From NCBI RefSeq assembly GCF_001661915.1, contig NZ_LYWY01000027.1, positions 1 to 46,969 of the forward strand: 46,969 nucleotides of DNA. Direction: 5' to 3'. This document shows positions 12,088 through 27,375 of this stretch, piece by piece (the first letter of the stretch is position 1; each line of letters starts with the position of its first letter). The DNA comes from Croceicoccus pelagius. GTDB taxonomy: Bacteria; Pseudomonadota; Alphaproteobacteria; Sphingomonadales; Sphingomonadaceae. A program made the translations under genes and the position numbers. The notes beneath the pieces were generated by a model. That model was not told where the DNA came from. It worked only from the letters and a program-made list of their open reading frames with translations, and did no database searches.

Positions 12088-12127
12088 ACTTAAATCAAAA
12101 TGGGCGAGAAAGATCAACAGGGTTCCT

Positions 12128-12492
12128 ATGGCTGAACTTGGTGCGACGCCAAAGGAGTATGCGGATAGCCAGTCGCCATATTGAGGACGCACCTTGTGTT
12201 GGATAGTCGTCGTTATCTATGGCTACGACGCGCAATTTATCGCTTGATTGCACTGGTGTTCGGTTCCGCTTCGCTGCTCGACAAAAGCGCTTTTGGCCCA
12301 GTTTTCCTCGCTGGCCCGGTTGGCCTTATGCTCGGCAGGGTAGCCTTCGGGGGAATTTCAGCTCGCTACAACCGCATGCGGGTATTTGCGTGGATTGTTT
12401 CACTTTCGGGATTTGTCCAACTCACAAGGTTCGCGGTAACGCTTGAAGAACTCCTCGCCATTACTGCATCTGAACCGAATGATATCATATGA
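12128..12492 (+). pseudogene. Remnant of an aromatic-acid:H+ symporter (MFS, AAHS family)
   Basis: The first roughly 100 residues of a PcaK/BenK-type transporter can be read in pieces. From ATG 12128 the frame reads MAELGATPKEYA, meets TGA at 12182, then continues in frame with LCWIVVVIYGYDAQFIA (TM1 with the family's DGxD-like motif) to a stop at 12245. The other frame then resumes with LLDKSAFGPVFLAGPVGLML and GRVAFGGISARYNRMRVFA (TM2-TM3 and the loop equivalent to DRFGRK), ending near EELLAI at about 12468. The rest of the gene is gone and glutaryl-CoA dehydrogenase follows directly. One stop, one frameshift and a large truncation make it non-functional. It fits as the former uptake gene of the upstream phenolic cluster. 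Confidence 0.72.
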
Positions 12493-12504
12493 CGAGTGGA
12501 ATTT

Positions 12505-13689
12505 ATGATCGAGATGGCACGGTTTGATTGGAGCGATCCCTTCAACTTTGACGATCAACTGACTGAAGAAGAACGAATGGTGCGTGATGCGGCTCATGGC
12601 TTCGCGCAAGGCGAACTTCAGCCCCGGGTCATCAATGCCTTCCGCGAAGAGCTGGATGCAGCAGAGTTGTTTCCACTCATGGGACAAGCCGGCTTGCTTG
12701 GAGCGACGATCCCACAGTCTTATGGCGGTGCTGGAGCTGGCTATGTCTCCTACGGTCTGATCGCGCGCGAGATTGAGCGCGTGGATTCGGGCTATCGTTC
12801 AATGGCATCGGTGCAAAGCTCGCTCGTCATGTATCCGATTTTTGCTTTCGGCTCGGAGGAACAGCGGTTTAAATATCTGCCTGGCCTAGCCGCAGGCTCG
12901 CTGATCGGCTGCTTCGGCCTGACAGAACCTGATGCGGGATCTGATCCTGCGGGCATGCGCACAATCGCGAAGAGGATTGATGGTGGCTATGTCCTTTCCG
13001 GCATCAAAACATGGATTTCGAATGCTCCTTTCGCCGACGTCTTTGTCGTCTGGGCAAAGAGCGAAGCACATGATGGGGCCATTTGCGGCTTCGTGCTTGA
13101 AAAGGGCCTGAAGGGGCTTTCCGCTCCCAAGATCAAGGGCAAGCTCAGCCTGCGCGCCTCGACCACCGGCATGATCGTGATGGATGAGGTTGAGGTTGAC
13201 GAAGAAGCCTTGCTCCCCGGGGTCCAGGGTCTCAAGGGCCCCTTCGATTGCCTAAACCGCGCACGCTATGGGATCAGTTGGGGAGCGCTCGGCGCAGCAG
13301 AATATTGCATGCACGCAGCCCGCCAATATGGGCTTGATCGGCACCAGTTTGGAAAGCCGCTTGCCTCCAACCAACTCTATCAAAAGAAGCTCGCCGATAT
13401 GCAAACAGACATTGCGCTAGGGTTGCAAGCCTCATTGCGTGTCGGCCGCCTAATGGATGAAGGCAGGTTCGCGCCGGAGATGGTCTCTCTCGTCAAGCGT
13501 AACAATGTCGGAAAATCGCTTGATATTGCGCGCCATGCCCGAGACATGCACGGCGGTAATGGCATCAGCGATGAATATCAAGTCATGCGGCACATGGTGA
13601 ATCTGGAAACCGTCAACACCTATGAAGGCACGCACGATGTGCACGCGCTCATCCTTGGTCGAGCACTCACTGGCATTGCCGCATTCTAG
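12505..13689 (+). CDS. gcdH: Glutaryl-CoA dehydrogenase
   Basis: FAD-dependent oxidative decarboxylation of glutaryl-CoA to crotonyl-CoA. The 394-residue protein carries the GCDH signature [14 protein letters not shown] (Arg98, which binds the distal carboxylate), [12 protein letters not shown] for FAD, and the catalytic Glu at about residue 374 in [10 protein letters not shown], with [15 protein letters not shown] before it. ATG 12505 is chosen; GTG 12496 and ATG 12514 are in frame. It is the only plus-strand gene of this stretch, converging on the acyl-CoA operon. A glutarate-type CoA-transferase at 26.2 kb could supply its substrate. By eye the gene is less GC-rich than its neighbours, hinting at separate origin. 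Confidence 0.92.
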
Positions 13690-13783
13690 GGCAGGCCACC
13701 TTCCTTCTTCAGTGTTGCGCTGCCTGGTCGCAGCAACAATCGTTGTGTCGAGTGAGCGGAAACGACGGAGCGTGGTGGCCGCC

Positions 13784-14968
13784 TCAATAGCTTCGCGGTA
13801 GTTTCAGGACATGCTCTGCGATGAATGACAATATGAGATTGGTCGAAACAGGTGCCACCTGATAAAGGCGGGCCTCTCGAAATTTCCGTTCGATGTCGTA
13901 TTCCTCAGCAAAGCCATATCCGCCATATGTCTGGATGCAGGCGTTGCCCGCTTCGACTGCTACGTCCGCGGCAAGCATTTTTGCCATGTTCGCCTCGGGT
14001 CCATGTTCAAGCCCCGCTTCGTAAAGGCGCGCGGCCTCATGGACCATGAGCTCGGCAGCGCGCATATTTGCGTGGGCTCGCGCGATCGGGAAAGAGACGC
14101 CCTGATTCATGCCAATGGGGCGATCGAAAACCACCCGTTGATTGGCATAAGCAATGGATTTTCGGGTAAACCATTTTGCATCACCGACGCATTCGGCAGC
14201 AATAAGAACTCTTTCCGCATTCATGCCCGAAAGGATGCAATGAAAGCCCTTGCCTTCTTTGCCTAAGAGATTGGCGACCGGGATGCGCATCCTGTCGAAG
14301 AAAAGTTCCGTCGTGGCATGGTTCATCATGGTGCGGATAGGCCGGATCGTTAGCGAACCCGCGGTGCGAGCCTGATTCATATCGACGATGAATATGGAAA
14401 GACCGTCGGTTTTCTTCGTCACTTGATCGCGCGGCGAAGTCCGCGCTAGCAGCAGCATGAGATCGCTGTGTTCGGCGCGACTGGTCCAGATTTTCTGGCC
14501 GCTCACCACAAAATAGTCCCCATCGCGAACTGCCGTCGTCCTTAACGCAGTGGTATCGGAGCCGCTTCCCGGCTCGGTTACGCCGAAAGCCTGCAAGCGC
14601 AGTGCGCCGCTTGCGATCGCGGGAAGATAAAGGCGCTTTTGCTCATCCGATCCATGTCTGAGGATGATGGCCATGTTATACATCTGGGCATGGCATGCCG
14701 CTCCGTTGCAACCCATCGCTTGAATCGTCTCAAGGATGGCAACTGCAGCCGAAAGGCCCAGACCTGATCCGCCATATTCCTCGGGTATGAGCACCGAAAG
14801 ATAGCCAGCGCTCGTCAACGCATCCACAAAGGAGGTCGGATATTCGCGATCAGCGTCGAGCTTGCGCCAATATTCACCCGGGAACTTTTCACACAGCCGG
14901 CGCACGCCGTCGCGGATTTCGTGAAAGTGTTGAGATTCGAAAGGACTAAGAAACTGCATCGCCCTCAT
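13784..14968 (-). CDS. Acyl-CoA dehydrogenase with IVD/LCAD-type catalytic base
   Basis: FAD-dependent alpha,beta-dehydrogenation of an acyl-CoA. The 394-residue protein has GVTEPGSGSDT, WTSRAEHSD and the IQTYGGYGFAEEYDIER motif. The usual C-terminal catalytic Glu (YEGT) is absent: the aligned segment reads LYQVAPVSTN. Instead Glu252 in GMNAERVLIA occupies the position of the base of isovaleryl-CoA and long-chain acyl-CoA dehydrogenases, so the enzyme should be active. Such a base suits branched or bulky substrates. Last gene of the minus-strand operon; its start (14968, or ATG 14959) overlaps the end of the hydratase gene. Substrate unknown. Confidence 0.88.
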   Translation of the reverse strand: MRAMQFLSPFESQHFHEIRDGVRRLCEKFPGEYWRKLDADREYPTSFVDALTSAGYLSVLIPEEYGGSGLGLSAAVAILETIQAMGCNGAACHAQMYNMAIILRHGSDEQKRLYLPAIASGALRLQAFGVTEPGSGSDTTALRTTAVRDGDYFVVSGQKIWTSRAEHSDLMLLLARTSPRDQVTKKTDGLSIFIVDMNQARTAGSLTIRPIRTMMNHATTELFFDRMRIPVANLLGKEGKGFHCILSGMNAERVLIAAECVGDAKWFTRKSIAYANQRVVFDRPIGMNQGVSFPIARAHANMRAAELMVHEAARLYEAGLEHGPEANMAKMLAADVAVEAGNACIQTYGGYGFAEEYDIERKFREARLYQVAPVSTNLILSFIAEHVLKLPRSY

Positions 14969-15821
14969 CCTGAGAGATTGTGAAAAACCCTTGATCTGCA
15001 ACGATGACGTCGCGCTCGAGCACCGATGCCCGAAAAGCGCCATTATTCCAGATTTCGGTTCTGATGGTTTCACCAGGGAACACCGGCGCGGCGAAACGCA
15101 GTTGCACTGCGCGCAGGCGCTCGGCCTGGTAGCCAAGTCGCCCGCGGAGGATGGCGTGAACGATGATGCCCATCGTGCCCAAGCCGTGCAATATCGGCAT
15201 CCTGTACCCGGCGCGCGCCGCGATTGCGGGATCGCTGTGCAGCGGGTTGAGATCTCCATTGAGACGATAGATCAGGGCCTGTTCGGGACCGGTCGTCAGG
15301 TCAATGACAAGACCGGCATTGCCTTCCGCCAAGGGTACCGGCGAACTTCGCGGTGCTTCGCCTTCCCCTCCGAACCCGCCGCCGCCGCGAATGAAGATCG
15401 TACGTTCAAGACAGGCAAAGCAGGTGCCGCGATCATCGCGGATATTGGTTTCGGTGAATATCAACGCGGCCTTGCCCGCGCCTTTGTCGACAATGTGGGT
15501 GACGCGGGTTGTGCTTTCGACTTCGCCAGTTGCCGGAACCGGGCCAAGCAGTACCATGGATTGGCCGGCATGCAGGACGGAAACCGGATCTACACCAGAA
15601 TCAGGGTGCCCCAGCCAGAACCCGGGACTCGCGAGAACGAGCGCCATGCCGGGCATGGCAACCGGTCCACGAAGGGGATCCACGAATGGCAGCTGCGCGA
15701 GGTCGGTAGGATCTCGCCCCATCCCGATCGATAAGGCGTAAAATGCAGCATCGCGTGGAGTGACGGTCTGACGAACCGCAGGAATACGAAAGTTGAGCAA
15801 TTTTTGCGGATCGATTGTCAC
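14946..15821 (-). CDS. R-specific enoyl-CoA hydratase 2 (MaoC / MFE-2 hydratase type)
   Basis: Hydrates a trans-2-enoyl-CoA to the (3R)-hydroxyacyl-CoA. A double hot-dog protein of 291 residues with the hydratase-2 signature around LNGDLNPLHSD and PILHGLGTMG (catalytic Asp and His). The start is GTG at 15821 (VTIDPQKLLNFRIP...), 23 nt after the previous gene; longer in-frame extensions run into that gene and have no homology. It pairs logically with the MFE-2-like (3R)-hydroxyacyl-CoA dehydrogenase at 22 kb; no crotonase-type hydratase is present in the operon. Confidence 0.87.
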   Translation of the reverse strand: MTIDPQKLLNFRIPAVRQTVTPRDAAFYALSIGMGRDPTDLAQLPFVDPLRGPVAMPGMALVLASPGFWLGHPDSGVDPVSVLHAGQSMVLLGPVPATGEVESTTRVTHIVDKGAGKAALIFTETNIRDDRGTCFACLERTIFIRGGGGFGGEGEAPRSSPVPLAEGNAGLVIDLTTGPEQALIYRLNGDLNPLHSDPAIAARAGYRMPILHGLGTMGIIVHAILRGRLGYQAERLRAVQLRFAAPVFPGETIRTEIWNNGAFRASVLERDVIVADQGFFTISQDEGDAVS

Positions 15822-15843
15822 TTTCAATTTCCCTGGAAGGTGG

Positions 15844-16704
15844 TCAAAGGGTGGCGCTGGCAACCATGATCGGACGGCCATCGCGCGCATGGGCGACGAA
15901 CTGAACACTATTGCCGTTCGCGCGAAGCGCCAAATGCAGTTCCTCGCCGCAGATCGCGGCAGACACCGCTCGGCAATCGAAGCACCGAAGCGCATTGTCG
16001 CCGAAGTGCTGCTGGGCGAGTTCCAGCAGCAGTGTCGCCGTCAACGGACCGTGAACGACGAGGCCGCGATACCCCTCGATTTCGCAGGTGTAGGCCCGAT
16101 CATAATGAATCCGGTGACTGTTGAAGGTCAGCGCCGAAAATCGGAACAGCAAGGTTTCGGAGGGGACCAGCGCGCGGTGCGCAACCCATCGGGATCCGTC
16201 GAAGATCATGTCAGACGGCCTTGGCAGCTCTGCGGTGCCCAAAGGCATGGGATCCCGATAAACGATCGCTTGGGTTTCGCGAACGGAGAGTTCGCCTTCG
16301 CAGCGGGTTTCTTGTGCTATCTCGACGAAAACAAGCTTGCCGGTCGCCCCTTGCTTTTCGGCGATGGAATTGATCCGCGATCTGCGCTGCACCTTCTGAC
16401 CGATGAGCAACGGCGAAAGAAATTCGATCTTGCTCGATGCCCACATCCGGCGCGACTGAGGAAGTGGTGGCATGAAGCTGCTTTCGCCGCCGCGCACCGG
16501 ATGGCCATCCACGCTCAATGCCGCTGTTGGCGCGTCTGGCAGGCAAAGGCACCAATGATAGCCTTGCGGCACGCTGCCATCTGCCGGCGCAACGCGGTCG
16601 AAAGTCGCCAGCCACCGTCTTGCGGCAGCGAGTTCCAGATAGTCGTGACGCAATTCTTCACGACCGATCCAGCTTTGCCATTGTTCGTCTGGCTGGGTGG
16701 TCAT
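15844..16704 (-). CDS. HTD2-family hydratase resembling mesaconyl-C4-CoA hydratase
   Basis: MaoC/FAS1-type dehydratase family of 286 residues. Family features are DGHPVRGGESSFMPPLP-like block (about 65-81), RRMWASSKIEFLSPL, KLVFVEIAQET and the NSHRIHYDRAY motif with catalytic His/Asp near the C-terminal hot-dog. Members annotated as mesaconyl-C4-CoA hydratase turn mesaconyl-C4-CoA into citramalyl-CoA in the 3-hydroxypropionate bicycle. Its neighbours here resemble the two enzymes that would precede that step. ATG overlaps the stop of the upstream gene (ATGA). Assignment to this reaction is inferred from family and context; another enoyl-CoA substrate is possible. Confidence 0.78.
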   Translation of the reverse strand: MTTQPDEQWQSWIGREELRHDYLELAAARRWLATFDRVAPADGSVPQGYHWCLCLPDAPTAALSVDGHPVRGGESSFMPPLPQSRRMWASSKIEFLSPLLIGQKVQRRSRINSIAEKQGATGKLVFVEIAQETRCEGELSVRETQAIVYRDPMPLGTAELPRPSDMIFDGSRWVAHRALVPSETLLFRFSALTFNSHRIHYDRAYTCEIEGYRGLVVHGPLTATLLLELAQQHFGDNALRCFDCRAVSAAICGEELHLALRANGNSVQFVAHARDGRPIMVASATL

Positions 16705-18293
16705 AAATCATCTCCGGTCAGGCCGCGGGCAATCACCTGAGCCTGAATTTCCGCAGCGCCCTCGAAAATGTTGAGGATGCGCGCATCGCAAAGGATGCGA
16801 CTGATCTCGTATTCAAGGGCATAACCATTGGCGCCGTGGATCTGCAGCGCAGCGTCGGCGTTCGACCAGGCGGCGCGAGCGGCAAGCAACTTTGCCATGC
16901 CGGCCTCAATATCGCAGCGCTTTTCCGAATCCCTGGCTCGCGCGGCAGCATAGCAGAGTTCACGCGCCATCACAAAATCGACAAGGCTCATCGCCAGCTT
17001 GTCCGACACGCGCGGAAACCCGACGATGGCCCTGCCGAATTGCTTGCGAACCAAGGCATAGTCGAGGCCCAGTTCGAGGGCCCGCCGCGCGACGCCGACT
17101 GCCCGCGCGGCGGTCTGGATGCGTGCGCCCTCGAAGGTACGCATGAGCTGCTTGAACCCTTTCCCCTCCTCGCCGCCCAGCAGGGCGTCTGCCGGCGCGG
17201 TCATGGCATCGAACTGCAGGGCATATTCGCGCATCCCGCGATAACCGGGGACCTCGATCTCGCTTCCGGTCATGCCAGGGGCTGGGAAACCGTCATCGCT
17301 CGTGCCCCGAGGCTTGGGCACCAGCAACATCGACAGCCCGGCGTAACCCCTGGCTTCAGGTAATGTTCGCACGAGCATCGTCATCAGATCTGATCGGCTG
17401 GCATGGGTAATCCAGTTTTTCGCCCCGTTGATGACCCAGTGATCGCCGTCGTGCCGTGCGCGGGTTTGAATGGAGCCAAGATCCGATCCGGTGTCGGGTT
17501 CGGTGAAGGCTGCTGACGGCAAAACCTCGCCGCTCGCGATCCTGGGTAGCCACCAGGCCTTTTGCGCTTCGGTGCCGTTCAAGCCGATCAGTTCGCCGGC
17601 GATTTCGGACCGCGTGCCAAGCGAACCCGCGCCAATCCAGCCGCGCGACAATTCCTCGGTTATGATGCACATCATTAGCTTGCCAAGGCCAAGACCCCCA
17701 TAGATTTCGGGTATGCAGACTCCGAATGTACCGAGATCGGCCATGGCCTGAATCACTGCCTCGGGGATAAGGTCATTCGCCAGATGCCATCCGTGCGCCT
17801 GGGGCACGATGACAGCATTGGTGAAGCGACGGTATTGCTCGCGGATCGTGTCGGCTTCGGCATCATCGAGCGACTCGCTTGGCCATTGCCCCTGAGCCAG
17901 GGCTGCGGCCACTTCGCCTCTGGTTGCCGCATAGTCCACGTCGAGCAGGTCCGCGCACCGGTCGAAAAGCGTGCGGGCAGCGCTGCCAAGTCCGAGGTCG
18001 CCGGGGCGGAAGATTTCGTTCTGGCCCATCGGCAGGCCGCCACCGATCTGGCCAATGCATTCAGCGAAGGCCAGAATGGCGATCCTGGCGTCAAGATCAT
18101 TCTTGCTGCCCCTGGCCTCGGACCATTCGAGCACCGCTTCCATCGCAGCCACAAGCGTGGCCACCCAGGCATAGCCGTGCGCGGCCCGCTGCTCCTCATC
18201 AATCCTTCCGGACACCAAGCGCGCGCCCAACGCTGCCTTGACCGAGGCGCGATAGTCTCTCGCGGCGTTCAGGGCCTGGCGCAGATCAGCCAC
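16701..18293 (-). CDS. mcd: (2S)-methylsuccinyl-CoA dehydrogenase-like acyl-CoA dehydrogenase
   Basis: A long acyl-CoA dehydrogenase (530 residues) with an N-terminal helical extension of roughly 130-150 residues, as in methylsuccinyl-CoA dehydrogenase (Mcd) of the ethylmalonyl-CoA pathway. Mcd-like stretches include PQAHGWHLANDLIPE, YGGLGLGKLMMCIITEELS, SLGTRSEIAGELI, FTEPDTGSDLGSI, NWITHASRSDLMT and the C-terminal LNIFEGAAEIQAQVIARGL, which carries the catalytic Glu. The reaction would be methylsuccinyl-CoA to mesaconyl-C1-CoA. GTG 18293 starts 2 nt after the thiolase stop; sequence further upstream lies inside that gene. No other ethylmalonyl-CoA pathway mutases or reductase are visible, so it may serve a catabolic branched dicarboxylate instead. 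Confidence 0.82.
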   Translation of the reverse strand: MADLRQALNAARDYRASVKAALGARLVSGRIDEEQRAAHGYAWVATLVAAMEAVLEWSEARGSKNDLDARIAILAFAECIGQIGGGLPMGQNEIFRPGDLGLGSAARTLFDRCADLLDVDYAATRGEVAAALAQGQWPSESLDDAEADTIREQYRRFTNAVIVPQAHGWHLANDLIPEAVIQAMADLGTFGVCIPEIYGGLGLGKLMMCIITEELSRGWIGAGSLGTRSEIAGELIGLNGTEAQKAWWLPRIASGEVLPSAAFTEPDTGSDLGSIQTRARHDGDHWVINGAKNWITHASRSDLMTMLVRTLPEARGYAGLSMLLVPKPRGTSDDGFPAPGMTGSEIEVPGYRGMREYALQFDAMTAPADALLGGEEGKGFKQLMRTFEGARIQTAARAVGVARRALELGLDYALVRKQFGRAIVGFPRVSDKLAMSLVDFVMARELCYAAARARDSEKRCDIEAGMAKLLAARAAWSNADAALQIHGANGYALEYEISRILCDARILNIFEGAAEIQAQVIARGLTGDDL

Positions 18294-18295
18294 CT

Positions 18296-19510
18296 TCAGG
18301 CCGCGCGCTCGAAGATTGCGGCGATGCCTTGTCCGCCGCCGATGCACATCGTCTCAAGACCGTAGCGGCCTTTCGTGCGCACAAGTTCGCGGGTAAGGTT
18401 GGCAAGAATACGACCACCGGTTGCACCGATCGGGTGGCCAAGCGATATACCCGAACCATTGACATTGAGGATTTCGTTCCGGCCGTCGTCATCCGACCAG
18501 CCCCATCCTTTCAGAACCGCCAGAACTTGCGGTGCGAAGGCTTCGTTCAGCTCAACCAGATCAATATCGCCCCAGCCAAGGCCGCTGCGGGCGAACAAGC
18601 GTTGCACTGCAGGAACGGGACCAATTCCCATGCGACTGGGATCACAGCCCGCCGCGGCCGAGCTATGATAAAAGGCGATCGGTTCCACCCCCAGTTCGTC
18701 GAGTTTGTCTTCGGCCACCACTAGGCAAGCGGCAGCGGCGTCGTTCTGCTGACTGGCGTTGCCAGCGGTTACGACGCCGCCCTCGATCGCCTTCAGCGCG
18801 CCGAGCGAAGCCATCGTCGCGTCGCCGCGATAACCTTCATCGTGTGCGAAGATGACAGGCGCGCCCTTTCTTTGCGGCACCACAACCGGCACGATTTCGT
18901 CGTCGAACATTCCATTCGCCCAGGCGGCCGCGGCCCGCTGGTGGCTGCGCACGGCATAGGCATCTGCCTGTTCCCGGCTGATGTCATAATCCCTGGCAAG
19001 ATTTTCGGCCGTTTCGATCATGCCGGAAATAACACCAAAACGCTCCGTCGGCTGAGACATAAGGCGTCCGCGCGTCAACCTGTCGTGAAGGGTGATATTG
19101 CCGGAACGCTTGCCCCTGCGAAGGTCGGTTGAATAATGTTCGACGTTGGACATTGATTCGACCCCGCCGGCGACAACAACGTCGGACATCCCCGTCTGCA
19201 CCATCATCGCGGCGTTGACGATCGCCTGCAGCCCCGAACCGCAGCGCCGGTCGAGCTGATAGCCGGGGACTTCAAGCGGCAGGTCGGCAGCCAGCCATGA
19301 CCAGTGGCCGATGGCCGGCGCCTCGCCGTTGCCATATCCCTGACTGAACACGACATCGTCAACCCGGGCGGGATCGATCTTCGTGCGCTCGATCAGGGCC
19401 TTGAGGATGACTGCGCCAAGCTCGCCTGCAGTCATCGGCGAAAGAGAGCCGCCAAACTTGCCCACCGCAGTGCGGATCGGCATGACAATGGCTGCGCGAC
19501 GAAGGGTCAT
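18296..19510 (-). CDS. Thiolase (acetyl-CoA acyltransferase)
   Basis: Cleaves a 3-oxoacyl-CoA with CoA to release acetyl-CoA (or propionyl-CoA). The 404-residue protein has the degradative thiolase motifs: nucleophilic Cys in DRRCGSGLQA (about 90), NEAFAPQ, GHPIGATGGR with catalytic His, and the C-terminal acid/base Cys in MCIGGGQG. ATG 19510 overlaps the stop of the CoA-transferase gene (ATGA); the in-frame N-terminal extension further upstream lies inside that gene and is rejected. Closes the R-type beta-oxidation cycle encoded by the operon. A role on a methyl-branched oxoadipyl-type substrate is possible but not shown. Confidence 0.92.
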   Translation of the reverse strand: MTLRRAAIVMPIRTAVGKFGGSLSPMTAGELGAVILKALIERTKIDPARVDDVVFSQGYGNGEAPAIGHWSWLAADLPLEVPGYQLDRRCGSGLQAIVNAAMMVQTGMSDVVVAGGVESMSNVEHYSTDLRRGKRSGNITLHDRLTRGRLMSQPTERFGVISGMIETAENLARDYDISREQADAYAVRSHQRAAAAWANGMFDDEIVPVVVPQRKGAPVIFAHDEGYRGDATMASLGALKAIEGGVVTAGNASQQNDAAAACLVVAEDKLDELGVEPIAFYHSSAAAGCDPSRMGIGPVPAVQRLFARSGLGWGDIDLVELNEAFAPQVLAVLKGWGWSDDDGRNEILNVNGSGISLGHPIGATGGRILANLTRELVRTKGRYGLETMCIGGGQGIAAIFERAA

Positions 19511-20721
19511 TTCGGGTCTCCACTCGCTATGTTGCCCACAATACCTGCGTCGATCAGGCGGCCGATTTCGGCGGCAGGCAGCGAGAGCAGATCCGCCAGG
19601 ACTTCTTCGGTATGCTGGCCATTGTACGGCGCGGGACAAGGCTCCCGACGGTGCATTTGAGGAACGGTGGCGAATGTGCCCGCGGCGGGATAGTCGAAGC
19701 CGCTGGGATTTGGCACCGTCCCGAAAATCGGATTGTTCGCTACCAGCGCTGGATCGTGAACCGCATCAAGCATCCTGCGATAGGGCGAAAAGACGATTCC
19801 CCCCGCATCGAAGGCAGTGGACAGATCGGCGTAATCACGCGAACGGATTGCCCGTTCAAACAAGGGATAGAGCATGTCACGCAAGGTATATCGGAGGCCG
19901 TCATCCTGTTCGAAAGAAACACCGCGCTCTTGTTCGATGGCCGCAACATCTTCGGAAAGGCCCAGCGCTACCAGCAAATTGGCCCACTGGCGATGCGTGG
20001 CAACGACAATCATTATCCGCACCCCGTCGCGCGTGGTGAAGTCGCGACCGAACAAGCCATAAACTGCATTGCCAAGGCGCGGACGATCCCGGCCCGTATA
20101 GAGCATTTCTGCAAGTGCACCGAGGTTGGCGACCGTGCCGATCGCCACGTCTGACAACGGCAGCCGGATCTCGCATCCTTCGCCACTTGTGCTTCGCCAC
20201 TGCATCGCGGCAAGCATGGCGAATGCTCCGTATGCGCCGGAAATGAGATCCCACGCGGGCAGGACATGATTGACCGGATCGGGGCCGGTTCCAGTCAGCA
20301 TAGGGTATCCCACGGCATTGTTTATGGTGTAATCGAGCGCGGGCGAGCCATCGGCCCACCCCATTATCCGCAAGGTGACAAGATCCGGACACCCCTGCGC
20401 GAGGAGGGCATGGGACAGGAAACCATCCACCGGAAAATTGGTGATGAGCTGGCCGGTTGCCCTCACCAGTTCCTGCACAATTTCACGCCCCTCAGGCTTG
20501 CGAAGATCAACCGCGACTGACTTTTTTGCACGATTGAGATTCTCCCAATAGAGCGAGTCGTTCGCCTCCGTCACAGGCCAGCGCCGGTAATCGGGGCCGC
20601 CGCCAGTCTGGTCGACACGTATCACCTGTGCGCCAAATTGCGCGCAATAAAGGCCCGCCGTGGGAGAGGCGACGAATGACGATGCCTCAATGATCGATAG
20701 GCCATCGAGAAAACTATACAT
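19507..20721 (-). CDS. Class III CoA-transferase resembling mesaconyl-CoA C1-C4 CoA transferase (2-methylfumaryl-CoA isomerase)
   Basis: CaiB/BaiF-family protein of 404 residues. It shares with Mct of the 3-hydroxypropionate bicycle several blocks that generic family members lack: GGGPDYRRWPVT (40-51), ITNFPVDGFLS, LDYTINNAVGYPMLTG, NHVLPAWDLI with catalytic Asp158, and RPRLGNAVYGLFGRDF. Mct moves CoA within one molecule, mesaconyl-C1-CoA to mesaconyl-C4-CoA. Downstream genes encode the matching dehydrogenase-like and hydratase-like proteins. Overlaps the thiolase gene by 4 nt. The comparison is from memory of the family, so the subfamily call needs an alignment; an intermolecular CoA-transferase is the alternative. 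Confidence 0.75.
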   Translation of the reverse strand: MYSFLDGLSIIEASSFVASPTAGLYCAQFGAQVIRVDQTGGGPDYRRWPVTEANDSLYWENLNRAKKSVAVDLRKPEGREIVQELVRATGQLITNFPVDGFLSHALLAQGCPDLVTLRIMGWADGSPALDYTINNAVGYPMLTGTGPDPVNHVLPAWDLISGAYGAFAMLAAMQWRSTSGEGCEIRLPLSDVAIGTVANLGALAEMLYTGRDRPRLGNAVYGLFGRDFTTRDGVRIMIVVATHRQWANLLVALGLSEDVAAIEQERGVSFEQDDGLRYTLRDMLYPLFERAIRSRDYADLSTAFDAGGIVFSPYRRMLDAVHDPALVANNPIFGTVPNPSGFDYPAAGTFATVPQMHRREPCPAPYNGQHTEEVLADLLSLPAAEIGRLIDAGIVGNIASGDPK

Positions 20722-20829
20722 GGCGTTTGATCCGGCCCGCAGGCGAATTGGCCACGCGCCAGGGCGGGGCGGAATGAACCCCCTGGCCGCCCATGGTGCA
20801 GCCTGCGGATGAAGTGCAACCCACGAAGG

Positions 20830-21999
20830 TCAATTCGCCGCCGCAAATTCGCGCAGCATGTGCTTAGCGATCTGGAGTTGCAGGATCTGGGTCGTGCCTT
20901 CATAAATCCGATATATGCGCGCATCGCGGAAGAAACGTTCGGCATCGTATTCGGCAAGATAGCCGGCACCGCCGTGGATCTGGACGCAGGCATCAACCAC
21001 CCGGCCGCACATTTCCGTCGCGAAAACCTTGAACGCCGCTGCTTTGCGCAAGATGTTCTCGCCTGCGTCGGCGCGCCGGGTGACATCGTCCATCATGCAT
21101 TCGGCGGCATAGATTTCGATCTCGCTCTGGGCGAGCATCTGCTGGATCAACTGGAAGTTGGCAATCGGCTCGCCGAATGCCTTGCGCTCGGTCGCGTATC
21201 GGATGGCGCTGTCCAGCGCCCGGCGGGCATAAGCGGTCGCTGCGGCGCCCACCGACATCCTGCCGTTGTCGAGGCTCATCATCGCGAATGCAAAGCCCTT
21301 GCCAAGTTCGCCGCCGAGCAAAGCCTCGCTGCCAACGTGGACATCTTCCAGCACGATATCGGCGATATGGCTACCCGACTGGCCCATCTTCCTGTCCGAC
21401 TTGCAGATCGTCACGCCGGGTATGTCAAGAGGGACGATGAATGCCGATATATGGGCGTTCTTGGGCAGATTTTCCGTGGCCGTCCGCGCCATGATCAGTC
21501 CAACCTTCGCAAAGGGCGAGTTGGTAATATATCGCTTGGTGCCATTGAGAAGCCAGCCGTCGGCGGTCGGCACCGCAGTCGTCTGCAGACCCGCCGCATC
21601 TGATCCCGAACCGGGTTCGGTCAGGCCGAAAGCGGCGATTTCACCCGCGGCAATGCGCGGCAGCCATGCAGCCTTCTGCGCTTCTGTTCCACCATTCTTG
21701 AAGGCTGATGCGAACATGCCGACATTGATCGAGATGATCGAGCGGAATGCCGGCATCGCATAACTTAGCGTGTGCATGGTGCGGATATACTGGCTGATGT
21801 TCATGCCGGCGCCGCCATGCTCTTCCGGTATGGTCAATCCAAACAGACCCATGTCGCGCATCGCTTCGAGGACGCTTTCGGGGATGAGGTCGGTTTCAAT
21901 AATTTTGCGCTCGACAGGAATGAGCCGGTCGCGCACGAAGCGTTCAAGCTGTATCAAGAATTGTTCGAAGACTTCTGCATCCATGCCGGCGTTGCTCAT
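20830..21999 (-). CDS. Acyl-CoA dehydrogenase (MCAD/SCAD-type catalytic base)
   Basis: A 389-residue FAD acyl-CoA dehydrogenase with FGLTEPGSGSDAAG, KRYITNSPFA, QIHGGAGYLAEYDAERFFRDARI and the C-terminal catalytic Glu in RIYEGTTQILQL. The helix-G position that carries Glu in the 13.8-kb paralogue is Gly here (SLDNGRMSVG), so the two enzymes use different catalytic bases and probably different substrates. It starts 10 nt after the SDR gene ends; a 108-bp gap without clear signals separates it from the CoA-transferase gene. Confidence 0.9.
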   Translation of the reverse strand: MSNAGMDAEVFEQFLIQLERFVRDRLIPVERKIIETDLIPESVLEAMRDMGLFGLTIPEEHGGAGMNISQYIRTMHTLSYAMPAFRSIISINVGMFASAFKNGGTEAQKAAWLPRIAAGEIAAFGLTEPGSGSDAAGLQTTAVPTADGWLLNGTKRYITNSPFAKVGLIMARTATENLPKNAHISAFIVPLDIPGVTICKSDRKMGQSGSHIADIVLEDVHVGSEALLGGELGKGFAFAMMSLDNGRMSVGAAATAYARRALDSAIRYATERKAFGEPIANFQLIQQMLAQSEIEIYAAECMMDDVTRRADAGENILRKAAAFKVFATEMCGRVVDACVQIHGGAGYLAEYDAERFFRDARIYRIYEGTTQILQLQIAKHMLREFAAAN

Positions 22000-22009
22000 C
22001 GGTTACCTG

Positions 22010-22927
22010 TCAGATTGGATCATAAGGAAAGACATGCGCCGAGACTTCATCGGCGCGCGCGAAGCTGCTGCGAAACGAAGGTACAAGCTCGTGGGCAATT
22101 GCCTCCGGCGTCCAGCCTTCGACCTTGGTCATCGACCGGATCGGCCGGGGCTTGCAAAACAGGGCGATTTCATTCTTGCGAACCGCGAAAATCTGGTTCG
22201 TCACGTCCTTGGACAGGTCGGATGCCAGATAGGCAACCAAAGGCGCGATCTTGTCTGCCGACATGGATTGCAACCGTTGGACACGTTCGTGTTCGGCAGG
22301 GGTTGTCGCGGGAATTGACGAGGTCATGCGGCTCCACGCAAAAGGCGCGATGCAGTTCGAGCGGACGCCAACCCGCGCCATGTCGAGCGCGATAGACTGC
22401 GAAAGCGCGACGACGGCCAACTTTGCCGCCGAATAGTTCGCCTGCCCGATGTTGCCGATCAGACCGCTCGTCGAAGTGAAATGAACGAAACTGCCCGCCT
22501 TCTGTTCACGAAAATAGGGCGTGGCGGCCTGGGAAACGTTGAAGACACCAGTAAGATTGACCGCGATGACGCTGGTCCAGTCCGCGTGACTCATCTTGTG
22601 CCAGATGCTGTCTCGCAGGATGCCTGCATTGTTCACGACCGCATCAATTCGGCCAAATTTCCGTACCGCATCCTCGATAATGCTCTGCGCCTCCGCCGGA
22701 TCTGCAACATTACCGAAGTTGGCCGCCGCTTTGCCCCCGGCAGCGATGATGTCGTTGGCGGTGTTCTGAGCGAATGCGGTATCGCCGCCGTTGCCCGCCT
22801 GCGCCACGCCAGGATCGTTGACGATAATTGCCGCCCCCTGCGCGGCGCAATACAACGCCAGTTGGCGACCTATTCCGCGCCCGGCACCAGTGATCGCGAC
22901 AACTGATCCATCCAGGCACCGATCCAT
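22010..22927 (-). CDS. MFE-2-like short-chain dehydrogenase, probable (3R)-hydroxyacyl-CoA dehydrogenase
   Basis: NAD(P)-dependent SDR of 305 residues: nucleotide-binding TGAGRGIG near the N-terminus and the active-site Ser...Tyr-x3-Lys (STSGLIGNIGQANYSAAK). Length and the C-terminal extension after the SDR core (QIFAVRKNEIALF...) match the dehydrogenase domain of peroxisomal-type multifunctional enzyme 2, which oxidises (3R)-hydroxyacyl-CoAs. That fits the R-specific hydratase 2 in the same operon. ATG 22927 (MDRCLDGSVVAITGAG) is preferred; the longer open frame upstream overlaps the next gene and lacks homology. Confidence 0.85.
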   Translation of the reverse strand: MDRCLDGSVVAITGAGRGIGRQLALYCAAQGAAIIVNDPGVAQAGNGGDTAFAQNTANDIIAAGGKAAANFGNVADPAEAQSIIEDAVRKFGRIDAVVNNAGILRDSIWHKMSHADWTSVIAVNLTGVFNVSQAATPYFREQKAGSFVHFTSTSGLIGNIGQANYSAAKLAVVALSQSIALDMARVGVRSNCIAPFAWSRMTSSIPATTPAEHERVQRLQSMSADKIAPLVAYLASDLSKDVTNQIFAVRKNEIALFCKPRPIRSMTKVEGWTPEAIAHELVPSFRSSFARADEVSAHVFPYDPI

Positions 22928-22970
22928 ATCCCGTTCCTCAAATGCAATTAGCCCGACAGGCAGGACTGGC

Positions 22971-23576
22971 TCAATGCCAGGCCCTGGCAACAAGCTCACC
23001 CAGTTCCTCTGCCACTCCGCCAGATGTGCTCGCCAAGGTACAATAGTTGGCAAAGCTTGCCTGGACTGCTGCTTCGGACGACTCGGCACGGGTCAACTGG
23101 TCCAGGTCCAGCCCAGCGAGCATTTGGGACTGGACCAGACGTTCACCATGCAACTCTGCCGTCTTCAGCGCCGCATAGGCTGCGGCGTTAATTTCCGACT
23201 CAGGCGTACCTTGGCACCACTGCTTCATCCAGCGCCGCACCGAACGGACCGGTTGCACGAAGCGTTCATTCGCAGTTGCTGCCGAGTGCTGCGCGGCCTC
23301 GATGTCCGAAACAGCGAGAATGGTGCTACGCGCCCCTGCCAACCAAAGGCAAAGCAACACCGTGTTGACGTCACACCCATGCTGATCCTGCAAGGCAAGG
23401 CAGGAAGCTGCCACACCCGGCTTGGCATAAATGTGTAAAGAATAGTCCCATAACGCCGCCGCGTGCTGCTCCACCTGAACTGAAGCTCCATCACCCACTG
23501 GCGGCACGACCGGGCCTTGGTCCGACCGTGCCGAAGTAGCCAATCGCGGACCTTGGTGAAAATGCTGACCAGACAT
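22971..23576 (-). CDS. TIGR02444/DUF2390-like protein of unknown function
   Basis: A 201-residue protein whose central part reads [17 protein letters not shown] and [20 protein letters not shown], the recognisable core of the TIGR02444 (DUF2390) family, whose function is not known. The start ATG 23576 (MSGQHFHQG) is 17 nt after the hydrolase stop. The N-terminal 40 residues are low in homology and may be variable. No catalytic motif seen. It sits inside the acyl-CoA operon between the C-C hydrolase and the dehydrogenase, an unusual place for this family. Confidence 0.7.
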
Positions 23577-23593
23577 GCAACGAGGCCAACCGC

Positions 23594-24454
23594 CTAGAAC
23601 GTGCGGGCGCCGAAATGGATTTCCATCATCGGACGCATGACATCCCACCGTTCCAGCTGCGACCAGTGACCCGAACGGTCGAGAACGTAGAGTTCGGCAT
23701 GCTTGAGATGCTGGATCAGGTAGAGGCTGGTGTCGAGCGGCACCACCCGGTCCTGGCGGCCATGGAAGATCAGCACTTCGTGCGGCATTTTGCCCAGCAG
23801 TTCGGGCGGCATGTTGAGCGTCTCAATGCCGTTCTTCATCGAATCGATCATCTTGACCGCGGTCTTCATGATTCCCGGATCGGTGGCGATCTTGTAACGG
23901 TTCTCGACGATTTCCTCCATGCCTTCGAACTTCTCGGCATCGTAGGCGAAGCTGTGCATCACCTGGCGATAGCGAGAGTAACGCGGGTCCGAATAGAACG
24001 AGAGCAGGCGGATCAATTCCGGGGTGCGCGGGCCGGGCGCCCCGATCGAACCCATCAGCACCACCTTGTCGATCGTGTCGGGCTCCTCGCTCATCATCTG
24101 CAGGGTCAGCGCGCCGCCCATCGAATTACCGACAACGTGGGCCTTCTTCACACCGAGCGCCTCAAGCAGGCCAAAGCACTGGTCGACCCGGGTGCCGATC
24201 CAGCCCATCACGCTGTCAGGCCACGGATCGGGAATCACCGACTGGCCGAAACCGATCAGGTCGGGCGCGATCACGAAGAAGTTTTCGGCGAGGTCCGGCA
24301 TCAGGTGATACCAGTTGGATGCGGCATGTGCGCCCGGACCCGCACCGTGAAGCAGCAGAATTGCCGGCTTGGACGGATCGCCCGCCAAGAGGGTGTGCGA
24401 GGTCAAGCCCCGGCCCGTGATCTTTTCTTCCCTGATAACACCTTCAGCAGCCAT
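23594..24454 (-). CDS. Meta-cleavage-product-type alpha/beta hydrolase
   Basis: C-C bond hydrolase family (BphD/XylF/MhpC-like) that splits ring-cleavage products into a 2-hydroxydienoate and a carboxylic acid. The 286-residue protein has the oxyanion loop HGAGPGA, nucleophile Ser in GNSMGG, Asp in GRQDRVVP and His in [11 protein letters not shown] 24454 follows GGGAG at good spacing. It heads the minus-strand acyl-CoA operon and is divergent from the HpaH/HpaI-like operon. A plausible division of labour is that the dienoate goes to HpaH/HpaI and the acid goes to CoA-dependent beta-oxidation. No ring-cleaving dioxygenase is in the window. Confidence 0.88.
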
Positions 24455-24539
24455 GACATTCTCCCATGTGATCCTGACGAAATATCCGCGCGACTCTTCG
24501 CCGGAGTTCACGGTCAAATTTGCCGGAACCTAAGATATC

Positions 24540-24558
24540 GTTTGACATTGTGCAATGG
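24540..24558. promoter_or_regulatory. Candidate operator and -35 element in the hydrolase/HpaH divergent region
   Basis: The segment GTTTGACATTGTGCAATGG contains a TTGACA hexamer (24542-24547) overlapping the inverted repeat CATTG-TG-CAATG (24546-24557). It matches 13 of 19 positions with a segment at 29629-29647 beside the IclR gene. A binding site for that regulator is the simplest reading. No convincing -10 box was picked out. Confidence 0.4.
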
Positions 24559-24592
24559 TTTTTCCCAAAGGATATGCCACGGGAGATTCAAG

Positions 24593-25408
24593 ATGGCAGT
24601 GGAGGTATTCAGCGACCTACTGGTCAACGAGCTGGCGCTTGAACTCGACGGCGCCGAACAGACCCGCGAACGGGTCCGGCCGTTCTCGGCGCGCTATCCT
24701 GCCATGCGGATCGAGGATGCCTACCGCATCAACCAGGCTTGGGTCGATCTCAAGCGAGAGCGCGGCCGGACCGTCTTTGGTCACAAGATCGGCCTGACCT
24801 CGCGCGCGATGCAACAGGCAGCCGGGATCACCGAACCCGATTACGGCACCTTGCTGGATGACATGGTGTTCGAACAGGGCAGCGACGTTCCGGCCGCGCG
24901 GTTCATCACGCCCAAGGTCGAGGTCGAGTTGGCCTTTGTGCTCGGGCGCCGCCTGGAAGGAGCACAGACGACGATTTTCGATGTCCTGAGCGCCACCGAC
25001 TATGTGGTTCCGGCAATCGAAATCATCGACACACGGGTGCATCCCAAGGATGCCGAAACCGGGGCCGCGCGCAAGGTCCTGGACACGATCAGCGACAATG
25101 CCGCCAATGCCGGAATCATTGTCGGCGGTCTGCCGGCGAAACCCGACGGGCTCGACCTGCGCCGCATCGGCGCCCTGCTCAGCCGCAACGGGGTGATCGA
25201 GGAGACCGGCCTTGCGGCAGGGGTGCTCAACCATCCCGCCAACGGCGTCGCGTGGCTGGTACGGCGGCTCGCGCCCTGGGGGCAAGGGCTCGAAGCCGGA
25301 GAAGTCGTGCTCGGCGGATCGTTCACGCGCCCGGTCGAAGCGGCGCCGGGCGATGTCTTCAATGCCGATTTCGGCGAGTTTGGTTCAATCGGGTTCCGGT
25401 TCGTTTAG
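24593..25408 (+). CDS. hpaH: HpaH/HpcG-like 2-oxo-hept-4-ene-1,7-dioate hydratase
   Basis: Hydrates a 2-oxo-4-enoate (or its dienol) to the 4-hydroxy-2-oxo acid in meta-cleavage lower pathways. The 271-residue protein closely follows HpcG of the homoprotocatechuate pathway: [73 protein letters not shown], and [11 protein letters not shown] 24593 follows GGGAG. The next gene encodes the matching aldolase, 9 nt away. True HpaH acts on a C7 dicarboxylate; MhpD/BphH-type substrates are an alternative. Confidence 0.88.
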
Positions 25409-25417
25409 GGGGCGAAA

Positions 25418-26206
25418 ATGCAAACACCCGTCAACCGCTTCAAGGCGGCCTTGCGCGAAGGTCCGGTCCAGCTTGGCTTCTGGTTGGCCCTGGCCCATCC
25501 AGACATTGCCGAAATCTGCGCGGGCCATGGCTATGACTGGCTGCTGATCGATGGCGAACATGGCCCGCAGACCCTGCCCGGCATCGTCGCGCAGCTGCGT
25601 GCGATCGAGGCGACGCCGCCGTGTTCGGCGATCGTCCGGATTGCCGGCCACGATCCGGTAGCAATCAAGCAGGTTCTCGATCTTGGAGCGCAGACTCTGA
25701 TGGTTCCGATGGTCGAAACCGCCGAACAGGCCCAGGCCATCGTAACTGCGTCCCGCTATCCGCCTGCAGGCGAACGCGGCCTCGGTGGCGCCCGTGCCGC
25801 GCGCTGGGGTGGCTATCCTGCCTATGTCGCAGAAGCCAATGCGCAGGTTTGCATCATCGCCCAGATCGAGACCGCGACCGCCGTCGACAATATTGAGGCG
25901 ATCGCCGCAGTGGACGGGATCGACGCGCTGTTTCTTGGACCTGCGGACCTGGCCGCGACCGAAGGTTTGCTGGGCGGAAGCAGCTTCGATGCCCTGTTCA
26001 AGCTGACCGGCGAGGCGCTGGCGCGTATCGTGGCAACCGGCAAACCGGCTGGGATCCTTTCGCGCGACGAGCGGCTCGTCCAGCAGTTCCTCGATGGCGG
26101 TGCCCGCTTCATCGCCAACGGGATCGACAGCTTCACCTTGGCAAAAGGTGCAGGCGACGGGCTTCGCCGCTGGCGCGAACGCATCGCCGCGCTGGGCGGA
26201 GACTGA
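25418..26206 (+). CDS. hpaI: HpaI/HpcH-like class II pyruvate aldolase
   Basis: Metal-dependent aldolase cleaving 4-hydroxy-2-oxoheptanedioate-type substrates to pyruvate and succinic semialdehyde. The 262-residue protein has WLLIDGEHGPQ (catalytic His), VPMVETAEQAQ, SRYPPAGERGLGG, IAQIETATAVDN (metal Glu) and GPADLAATEG. It forms an operon with the HpaH-like gene and is followed after 2 nt by the CoA-transferase gene. The released succinic semialdehyde could be oxidised by the GabD-like enzyme at 2.7 kb. HpaI also belongs to the superfamily of citramalyl-CoA lyase, so a side role there cannot be excluded. Confidence 0.88.
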   Translation: MQTPVNRFKAALREGPVQLGFWLALAHPDIAEICAGHGYDWLLIDGEHGPQTLPGIVAQLRAIEATPPCSAIVRIAGHDPVAIKQVLDLGAQTLMVPMVETAEQAQAIVTASRYPPAGERGLGGARAARWGGYPAYVAEANAQVCIIAQIETATAVDNIEAIAAVDGIDALFLGPADLAATEGLLGGSSFDALFKLTGEALARIVATGKPAGILSRDERLVQQFLDGGARFIANGIDSFTLAKGAGDGLRRWRERIAALGGD

Positions 26207-26208: not shown

Positions 26209-27375
26209 ATGGCGAAACCGTCCTGGCGGGCCGCGGTAACCGGCGATCCGTCCAAACCGCTCGATGGGGTGCGGGTGCTTGAGCTCGCCCGCATTCTGGC
26301 CGGCCCCTGGTGCGGGCAATTGCTGGCGGACCTGGGCGCCGAAGTGATCAAGATCGAGCGGCCCGGTGCGGGCGACGACACGCGGCATTGGGGGCCGCCG
26401 TTCGTCACCGCAGAAGACGGTACGAGTCTGGGCGCGGCCTATTTCCATTCGACCAATCGCGGCAAGCGCTCCTTCGCGATCGACATCGCCAGCGCGGAAG
26501 GCCAGGCCATCATCCGCGAGCTGGCGAACGGGGCCGACATCCTGATCGAAAACTACAAGGTCGGCGGGCTGGCTAAATACGGGCTTGACCATGCCGCGCT
26601 GTCCGAACTGAACCCGCGCCTGATTACTTGCTCGATCACCGGGTTCGGGCAGACCGGGCCTTATGCCCACCGCGCGGGCTACGATTTCATCGCCCAGGCC
26701 ATGGGCGGCATGATGTCGATGACCGGCGAACCCGATCGCGAGCCACAGAAGGCTGGCATCGCGGTGGCCGACCTGTTCACGGGCATGTACAGCACTGTGG
26801 CGATTCTCGCCGCGCTCAACCGCCGGGACCGCACCGGCAGCGGCGCCCATATCGACATGGCGCTGCTCGATACCCAGGTGGCGGTCATGGCCAATCAGGC
26901 GATGAACTGGATGACTTCGGGCAAGGTCCCGCGCCGGTTCGGCAACGGTCATGCCAATCTGGCACCCTATCAAGCCTTCCCCACGCTTGACGGGCCCTTG
27001 GTGATTGCGGCGGGCAATGACAGCCAGTTCGCCAGCCTTTGCCGCATCCTCGAATGCTCGCTGCATGACGATCCGCGCTTCACCACCAACCCCGCACGGC
27101 TTGCGAACAGGTCCGAACTTATCGAAACCGTGGAGACGCTTACGGCCCGATGGAACCGGCAGGAACTGTTCAACGCGCTGGAGGACGCGGGCGTACCCGC
27201 CGGACCGATCAACGAGCTCGACGAAGTGTTCGCTGATCCGCATGTCGTTGCAAGGGGTCTGGCGGTAACCCCGGAAGGCTACAAGGGTGTCGCTAGCCCG
27301 ATCGTGATAGACGGTGTGAGAATGGTTTCGGACCGACCGGCACCGGGCATACCTCAGCCCTTCAAGGTCGAATAA
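26209..27375 (+). CDS. Class III CoA-transferase, succinyl-CoA:glutarate type, with short C-terminus
   Basis: CaiB/BaiF-family enzyme of 388 residues. Features resembling the glutarate CoA-transferase branch include LARILAGPWCGQLLADLGAE, ERPGAGDDTRHWGPPF, CSITGFGQTGPY, catalytic Asp188 in AGIAVADLFTGMYS and PRRFGNGHANLAPYQAF. It could activate glutarate or another dicarboxylate using succinyl-CoA; GCDH at 12.5 kb would be a logical user. The sequence stops at IPQPFKVE, lacking the usual final 25-30 residues (the GxHTxEVL helix), and no remnant of them is seen in other frames before the convergent MFS gene 9 bp away. Confidence 0.83.
   Translation: MAKPSWRAAVTGDPSKPLDGVRVLELARILAGPWCGQLLADLGAEVIKIERPGAGDDTRHWGPPFVTAEDGTSLGAAYFHSTNRGKRSFAIDIASAEGQAIIRELANGADILIENYKVGGLAKYGLDHAALSELNPRLITCSITGFGQTGPYAHRAGYDFIAQAMGGMMSMTGEPDREPQKAGIAVADLFTGMYSTVAILAALNRRDRTGSGAHIDMALLDTQVAVMANQAMNWMTSGKVPRRFGNGHANLAPYQAFPTLDGPLVIAAGNDSQFASLCRILECSLHDDPRFTTNPARLANRSELIETVETLTARWNRQELFNALEDAGVPAGPINELDEVFADPHVVARGLAVTPEGYKGVASPIVIDGVRMVSDRPAPGIPQPFKVE

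Follow-up and report, generated by a model that had tools for sequence, protein, structure and literature searches.

A candidate operon for the removal of methylsuccinyl-CoA from beta-oxidation in the sphingomonad Croceicoccus pelagius

Why would a bacterium keep, within one catabolic operon, relatives of an enzyme of the ethylmalonyl-CoA pathway and of two enzymes of the 3-hydroxypropionate bicycle? The question is posed by a 46,969-nucleotide stretch of the Croceicoccus pelagius genome (assembly GCF_001661915.1, contig NZ_LYWY01000027.1, positions 1 to 46,969; hereafter the window), in which genes for a (2S)-methylsuccinyl-C1-CoA dehydrogenase-like protein (Mcd-like), a mesaconyl-CoA C1-C4 CoA transferase-like protein (Mct-like) and a mesaconyl-C4-CoA hydratase-like protein (Meh-like) lie among genes of beta-oxidation type. 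We propose, with a probability of roughly 70%, that the operon serves the self-contained removal of methylsuccinyl-CoA arising from the beta-oxidation of a methyl-branched dicarboxylic acid, finishing via citramalyl-CoA.

In this scheme, two acyl-CoA dehydrogenases (ACAD_B and ACAD_A), a hydratase, a short-chain dehydrogenase/reductase (SDR) and a thiolase (Thl) would shorten a 3-methyladipate-type acid, and thiolysis of 4-methyl-3-oxoadipyl-CoA would release methylsuccinyl-C1-CoA. Mcd would then convert the (2S)-ester to mesaconyl-C1-CoA, Mct would move the CoA from C1 to C4, giving mesaconyl-C4-CoA, and Meh would add water to yield (S)-citramalyl-CoA, which a CitE/Ccl-type lyase encoded elsewhere in the genome may split into acetyl-CoA and pyruvate. 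We infer the reactions, the participating lyase and the substrate; sequence and gene company lend the pathway good support, and the lyase step less.

Enzymes and layout of the operon

The closest solved relative of the Mcd-like protein (530 amino acids) is Paracoccus denitrificans Mcd (6es9, 572 bits), an enzyme of the ethylmalonyl-CoA pathway, with FadE3 (4iv6) as runner-up at 261 bits. The window protein and 6es9 share a fold family and the long N-terminal extension, residue 28 onward of the window protein aligning with residue 49 onward of 6es9, so that the initial annotation of a methylsuccinyl-CoA dehydrogenase-like protein with such an extension holds. All 11 residues of interest named in the relevant passages of PMC5798300 (Glu535, Arg252, Arg376, Arg421, Glu380, Ala285, Phe287, Ser248, Thr418, Trp318 and Tyr375) are retained in the alignment to 6es9, among them the catalytic Glu535, the three arginines and the Ala285/Phe287 methyl pocket. 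Ten of the residues occur in 75/75 distinct Mcd relatives and Glu535 in 72, the other three sequences not covering that position. This constancy bears on the possibility that the true substrate of the module is a larger 2-alkylsuccinyl-CoA, or a dicarboxylate derived from a ring, instead of methylsuccinyl-CoA. Such a role would suit the beta-oxidation set found beside the module in many loci, and the hydrolase, HpaH and HpaI genes of an aromatic island in the window may point to a bicyclic or doubly substituted aromatic; the invariant methyl pocket and arginines, together with the specificity for the methyl branch reported for Mcd in the same passages of PMC5798300, nevertheless make it distinctly unlikely.

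For the Mct-like protein, the best-scoring PDB chains are 8apq (318 bits) and 7xkg (311 bits), followed at 101 bits by a chain named succinate--hydroxymethylglutarate CoA-transferase. A tree of 58 rows was built with five CaiB-type outgroup rows, presumed intermolecular from the family profiles of two of them; the Mct-like rows and 8apq/7xkg form one group of 53 rows (support 100/99), set on a long branch off the CaiB-type rows. The initial annotation had named a grouping with ordinary intermolecular family III enzymes as the outcome that would speak against it. The tree rules such a grouping out, relative to five outgroup rows that are mostly long-branched and of which one (L003) stands apart from the other four. 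According to the parts of PMC9813914 and PMC9196870 that concern the active site, Asp165 is the nucleophile of Mct, and Arg47 and Tyr136 hold the free carboxylate. These three residues are retained in the window protein; Asp165, Arg47, Asn100 and Asp135 are present in 141/141 distinct Mct relatives, and Tyr136 in 126 of the 141 (Phe in 14, Pro in one). To judge from its sequence, the Mct-like protein should work like Mct. ThnP of anaerobic naphthalene degradation was also considered and set aside, being intramolecular but of family I rather than family III as described in the pertinent part of PMC11659651.

The Meh-like protein scores 183 bits against 8huc over residues 8-259 and 182 bits against 8khg, a chain named itaconyl-CoA hydratase, and matches PF13452 at 35.9 bits (cut-off 22). 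Its likeness to Meh of the 3-hydroxypropionate bicycle is indirect, as no solved chain of a characterised Meh is among its PDB matches.

With gene starts picked by eye, the minus-strand order reads SDR, ACAD_B, Mct-like, thiolase, Mcd-like, Meh-like, MFE-2-type hydratase and ACAD_A (Table 1). The thiolase and Mct-like genes overlap by four bases (19507-19510), as do the Meh-like and Mcd-like genes (16701-16704), and these overlaps point to translational coupling; the Mcd-like gene starts with GTG at 18293, two bases past the thiolase gene, which ends at 18296. The Meh-Mcd-thiolase-Mct run is thereby confirmed, and the initial description of three tightly coupled genes with a thiolase interleaved is borne out in coordinates and overlaps alike. 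A scan for promoters and terminators gave counts close to chance (5 versus 4.4 expected and 12 versus 13.3 expected) and was set aside.

Gene company, distribution and known pathways

The same genes recur around Mct in other genomes. Of 132 loci with an Mct relative, 80 were kept, many of which end early at contig ends. Within 8.5 kb of Mct and on the same strand, Thl is present in 67 of the 80, Mcd in 62, ACAD_B in 49, Meh in 41, ACAD_A in 34, SDR in 29 and MaoC2 in 15; Mct, Mcd and Meh occur together in 34. In eight loci (L038-L045, from Novosphingobium, Sphingobium and a Caenibius metagenome-assembled genome) the version found is that of the window, with 88-100% identity across the genes present, L040 covering the module part only. 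The island hydrolase, HpaH and HpaI have no match (E 1e-20) in the other 72 loci, and the module occurs mostly away from the aromatic island of the window. In L134, L148 and L233, the module lies beside a gene for a 3-hydroxy-3-methylglutaryl-CoA-synthase-like or OB-fold protein and one for an acetyl-CoA acetyltransferase (partly assigned by eye).

In a sample of 296 genomes of the order, 213 of them from the window's GTDB family, Mct (E 1e-60) was found in 118 and Mcd (E 1e-120) in 87. Within the family, Mct is present in 116/213 and Mcd in 63/213 genomes, and all 63 also have Mct (Fisher's exact P = 4.7e-22, a value that ignores relatedness). The distance between Mcd and Mct is at most 8 kb in 31/37 genomes in which Mcd reaches 65% identity, and in 4/26 below that identity; where the two lie apart, Meh or Thl can remain the neighbour of Mcd (L219-L223; plasmid pNL2 of Novosphingobium aromaticivorans DSM 12444, where mcd-meh are SARO_RS19850/19855).

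Mcd is the hallmark enzyme of the ethylmalonyl-CoA pathway, as stated in the relevant part of PMC5798300, and the operon might on that ground be assigned to it. That pathway's crotonyl-CoA carboxylase/reductase (Ccr; TIGR01751, E 1e-90) has no match over the cut-off in the window genome, which is rated 100% complete; among the 80 genomes searched, it was found in 0/63 Mcd-bearers of the family and in 0/9 Mct-bearers without Mcd, versus 8/8 tested Mcd-bearers of other families, in which it adjoins Mcd. Consequently, the operon does not serve the ethylmalonyl-CoA pathway, a role that we reject as having next to no probability, and the independence from that pathway suspected initially is upheld. 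The second hydratase of the operon is, moreover, of MFE-2 type (a mesaconyl-C1-CoA hydratase was not searched for elsewhere in the genome), and Mcd is here followed by Mct and Meh instead.

A place in the 3-hydroxypropionate bicycle, to which Mct and Meh belong in Chloroflexus, is likewise very improbable. With the Mct of Chloroflexus and Roseiflexus the window protein has in common the catalytic Asp, Arg and Tyr, and the order mesaconyl-C1-CoA, mesaconyl-C4-CoA, citramalyl-CoA would be the same. Outside the order, Mct-Meh together with a same-strand CitE-like gene is present in 3/15 loci, laxer limits adding L206, as might be expected of such a role. The window protein, by contrast, falls in a separate group of the tree, has Pro43 and is joined to Mcd and beta-oxidation genes; the case against the bicycle is drawn from that gene company, malonyl-CoA reductase and propionyl-CoA synthase not having been searched for.

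The pseudomonad itaconate/methylsuccinate cluster (ict, ich, ccl, mcd and msi), as presented in part of PMC12290011, has mesaconyl-C4-CoA, an Ich-type hydratase and a citramalyl-CoA lyase in common with the proposed pathway, but differs in its (RS)-methylsuccinyl-C4-CoA dehydrogenase, which acts on C4 esters. Because of this, the pseudomonad cluster needs no Mct. The authors of that study regard the C1 ester as a dead end for C. necator, and an Mct would offer a way out of such an impasse. A family I itaconate CoA transferase and an MmgE/PrpD isomerase were not among the 10 module and neighbour proteins that were profiled, the rest of the genome not having been searched.

Across the phylum, an Mct-like gene (E 1e-60) is found in 28/398 sampled genomes, 7 of them in the family, 12 in the rest of the class and 9 in other classes. 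Outside the class, L201 (8063-12718) and L198 (8468-10938) carry an Mct-like gene (38-43% identity) near an Mcd-like one (39-41%), perhaps a separate or more ancient form of the same pairing.

Points against the pathway, and the lyase

Several observations weigh against the proposed pathway. The Mct-like protein reaches 335 bits against TIGR04253, well under the cut-off of 725, and the main sphingomonad group of the tree (31 rows, 100/100) stands beside, not inside, the 15-row group with characterised Mct. Leu43, according to the passages of PMC9813914 that deal with it, forms a constriction and is Leu or Ile in all intramolecular enzymes; the window protein has Pro43, and positions 104 and 314 differ as well. 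Missing both the Leu/Ile43 hallmark and the TIGR04253 cut-off, the protein is filed as Mct-like rather than Mct. Pro43 is found in 5/5 of the relatives closest to the window protein, in 92/94 at 60-90% identity and in 7/21 at 48-60% (Leu in 14), whereas 20/21 relatives below 48% have Leu, Met, Ile or Val. These differences leave some room for a role as an intermolecular CoA-transferase, in which the protein would activate a free dicarboxylic acid and Mcd and Meh would then do without any C1-C4 shift, since Pro43 and the loss of Arg104 and Arg314 could loosen the 'cork' described in the same passages. We regard this as unlikely, given the long, supported branch that parts the Mct-like rows from the five CaiB-type proteins, the retention of the residues that would hold the second carboxylate (Arg47 and Tyr136) and the presence, in the island, of a gene for a SUGCT-like transferase.

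A chain likewise named (2S)-methylsuccinyl-CoA dehydrogenase, 8ciw, scores 245 bits against the Mcd-like protein, under FadE3, and therefore not every enzyme so named is close to it. Moreover, 53/116 Mct-bearing family genomes have no Mcd (E 1e-120), so either Mct serves some purpose in the absence of this Mcd or a different dehydrogenase stands in for Mcd. Among eight of the 53 that were inspected, four (G234, G128, G219 and G293) retain an SDR/ACAD_B-Mct-Thl-Meh run, three (G088, G281 and G108) have ACAD_A in the place of Mcd, and no Meh was seen in G149. The arrangement ACAD_B-Mct-Thl-Meh was also noted in loci such as L120, L122, L131 and L132, from genomes without recognisable Mcd.

The remaining difficulties concern the lyase. 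A CitE/Mcl-type gene, for which the initial annotation suggested searching the neighbouring DNA, is not found within the window: the sole PF03328 match there is nearest to HpaI aldolase, and its profile rules out the gene at 25418 as the missing lyase. Two CitE-like genes are present in the genome: that of contig C32 has a small MaoC gene as its neighbour, and the other is on contig C30. In the family, the C32 type is near-universal (112/116 genomes with Mct and 85/97 without), and the C30 type occurs more often in genomes without Mct (31/97) than in those with it (22/116), so that co-occurrence fails to support either as the partner; neither type is present in 3/116 Mct-bearing family genomes (E 1e-60). 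A same-strand lyase lies within 8.5 kb of Mct in 0/80 loci, and in 2/34 loci of a second order set (33 genomes, G150 being represented twice, partly overlapping the 80), one of the two (L126) being a weak match at 30% identity.

The initial reasoning towards citramalyl-CoA is, nevertheless, supported by operons that carry their own lyase. On plasmid pSHV1 of Sphingobium herbicidovorans MH, a divergent regulator is followed by Mct (68% identity), Mcd (76%), Meh (55%) and, as the fourth gene of the operon, a lyase (B6S01_RS19935) nearest to RipC/citramalyl-CoA lyase (Ccl; 266 bits, cut-off 375; next citE at 122 bits; top PDB match 3qll). Its identity to either CitE-like gene of the window genome is just 33-34%, which speaks against the proposal. 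A lyase 61% identical to that of pSHV1 closes the operon Mct-Thl-Mcd-Meh-lyase in genome G248 (L151). In G231 and G150, which belong to one genus, the lyase found upstream of the module on the same strand, just beyond 8.5 kb, is 55% like the C30 gene; the run in G231 comprises lyase, CaiB, a thiamine pyrophosphate (TPP) enzyme, lactate-dehydrogenase-like, GlcD-like, SDR, ACAD_B, Mct, Thl, Mcd and Meh. In L160 (10415-16639), and likewise in L161, CitE-like, CaiB, TPP enzyme (PRK07586, above cut-off), lactate-dehydrogenase-like and GlcD-like genes precede the module.

Substrate source and the plasmid-borne island

Where might methylsuccinyl-CoA come from? In the passage of PMC6449761 on the Mml pathway for 4-methylmuconolactone, a thiolase cleaves 4-methyl-3-oxoadipyl-CoA to methylsuccinyl-CoA; that passage gives no onward route, and the window module would be one. 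The product would carry its thioester beside the methyl carbon and would thus be methylsuccinyl-C1-CoA, the substrate of Mcd. In the literature openly licensed in PMC, only the ethylmalonyl-CoA and pseudomonad C4-ester routes were found for methylsuccinyl-CoA after thiolysis, although others may be published elsewhere.

An origin from methylaromatics, as envisaged in the initial annotation, may apply. It would fit the plasmids pSHV1 and pCADAB1 of two herbicide strains, the first of which, S. herbicidovorans MH, degrades phenoxypropionate herbicides. Methylaromatics need not, however, be the general substrate, because 72/80 loci lack matches to the island hydrolase, HpaH and HpaI; the ring-cleavage genes of the window are themselves of this type, not of the 4-methyl-3-oxoadipate type. 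On pCADAB1 of the MCPA degrader ERG5, cadAB, tfd genes, a 3-oxoacid CoA-transferase and pcaF are followed about 25 kb further on by Mct and Mcd, between which some 80 codons remain of a thiolase gene (L227 9197-9445), with no Meh or lyase adjoining. The part of PMC3877037 that concerns MCPA follows the product to 3-oxoadipate without tracing the methyl group. By our reckoning the C4 ester would be the product from MCPA, and Mct would then need to accept methylsuccinyl-CoA as well, which speaks against MCPA as a straightforward source. A 3-methyladipate-type acid would be a fitting substrate for the operons that lie outside the island. In Refsum patients, 3-methyladipic acid marks the degradation of phytanate by omega- together with beta-oxidation, according to the relevant part of PMC8781152; a literature search on 3-methyladipate returned no bacterial degradation by title or abstract start.

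In the window, the operon is embedded in a plasmid-type catabolic island (Table 1). Plasmid pNL1 of N. aromaticivorans matches a 24-kb query at 94.8% over 61%, and its island contains UbiX, two FAD-dependent proteins, cytochrome c, hydroxyarylic acid decarboxylase, hydrolase, HpaH, HpaI-type aldolase, CoA transferase, IclR and further genes; plasmid stretches of Novosphingobium ES2-1 and Sphingobium yanoikuyae SJTF8 follow the pNL1 order from the first FAD-binding protein on. Window segments 2996-12191 and 21534-38992 adjoin directly in pNL1 (L224 9192-9194), which lacks the intervening 9.34 kb (12192-21533) and with it most of the module, from the divergent dehydrogenase through the 3' part of ACAD_B, while SDR and later genes remain. 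With ACAD_B cut in this way, the gap is most simply explained by a deletion in pNL1. Window 12041-23595 has no match in ES2-1 or SJTF8 and, together with the pNL1 gap, this makes the module an optional part of a plasmid-borne catabolic island.

Table 1. Genes of the operon and its neighbourhood in the window, with the main basis of each assignment.
Feature	Coordinates	Strand	Basis
Acyl-CoA dehydrogenase, divergent neighbour, glutaryl-CoA-dehydrogenase-like by eye	12496..13689	+	Pfam domains; NCBIfam GlutCoADH 205 bits, below cut-off 470, another family scoring higher
ACAD_A, acyl-CoA dehydrogenase, putative beta-oxidation	13784..14959	-	Pfam acyl-CoA dehydrogenase domains
MFE-2-type (R)-enoyl-CoA hydratase 2	14946..15821	-	Top PDB matches MaoC-family / enoyl-CoA hydratase 2, 140-135 bits
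Meh-like, mesaconyl-C4-CoA / itaconyl-CoA hydratase family, FAS1-like dehydratase region	15844..16704	-	8huc 183 bits, 8khg 182 bits
Mcd-like, (2S)-methylsuccinyl-C1-CoA dehydrogenase type, N-terminal extension	16701..18293	-	6es9 572 bits; 11 specificity residues
Thiolase, acetyl-CoA C-acetyltransferase type	18296..19510	-	PRK06205 664 bits, above cut-off 551 (longer open reading frame 18296-19639); beta-ketothiolase 5byv 410 bits
Mct-like CoA transferase	19507..20721	-	8apq 318 bits; tree; catalytic residues
ACAD_B, short-chain-type acyl-CoA dehydrogenase	20830..21999	-	2vig (short-chain acyl-CoA dehydrogenase) 257 bits
SDR, 3-hydroxyacyl-CoA dehydrogenase type, PRK07791-like	22010..22927	-	247 bits, below cut-off 373
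C-C hydrolase, meta-cleavage type (HsaD/BphD-like), island	23594..24454	-	NF045632 152 bits, below cut-off 400
HpaH-type 2-oxo-hept-4-ene-1,7-dioate hydratase, island	24551..25408 (start approximate)	+	TIGR02312 458 bits, above cut-off 351.5
HpaI-type aldolase (PF03328), island	25418..26206	+	TIGR02311 275 bits, below cut-off 369
CaiB-type CoA-transferase, succinate-glutarate-like; tree outgroup	26209..27375	+	NF052585 536 bits, below cut-off 750

Further genes of the window flank this region. Two FAD-dependent oxidases (class assigned by eye), cytochrome c, two aldehyde dehydrogenases, UbiX and a VdcC-type decarboxylase (675 bits, above the cut-off of 650) are encoded at 2655-12087, a set that suggests a 4-alkylphenol or hydroxybenzoate branch. 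The region 33762-42725 encodes a tartrate dehydrogenase (above cut-off), a DapA-family protein and an HcaE-like Rieske dioxygenase alpha subunit (400 bits, under the cut-off of 830). Extradiol dioxygenases would fall among the glyoxalase-family matches, of which the genome has 19, all on contigs other than that of the window.

What the operon means for sphingomonads can be put tentatively. It is conceivable, if somewhat doubtful, that methylsuccinyl-C1-CoA is handled in these bacteria by a dedicated and widespread pathway (Mcd-Mct-Meh-lyase), which completes the breakdown of dicarboxylates of the 3-methyladipate type, for example, those left from omega-oxidised phytanate or other isoprenoid chains, and that catabolic plasmids borrowed it for methyl-substituted aromatics such as MCPA. 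Thiolysis of methyl-3-oxoadipyl-CoA in the degradation of methylcatechol, and probably of methylated herbicides, leaves methylsuccinyl-CoA, and copies of the module sit on plasmids of two herbicide strains; if the proposal is true, the fate of the methyl carbons in MCPA degradation has so far been passed over. The gene set would represent a third methylsuccinyl-CoA route, assembled from known enzyme types, in hosts that can be grown and mutated. Finally, the pathway would explain why 63 of the 213 sampled genomes of the family carry Mcd though none of the 63 has Ccr.

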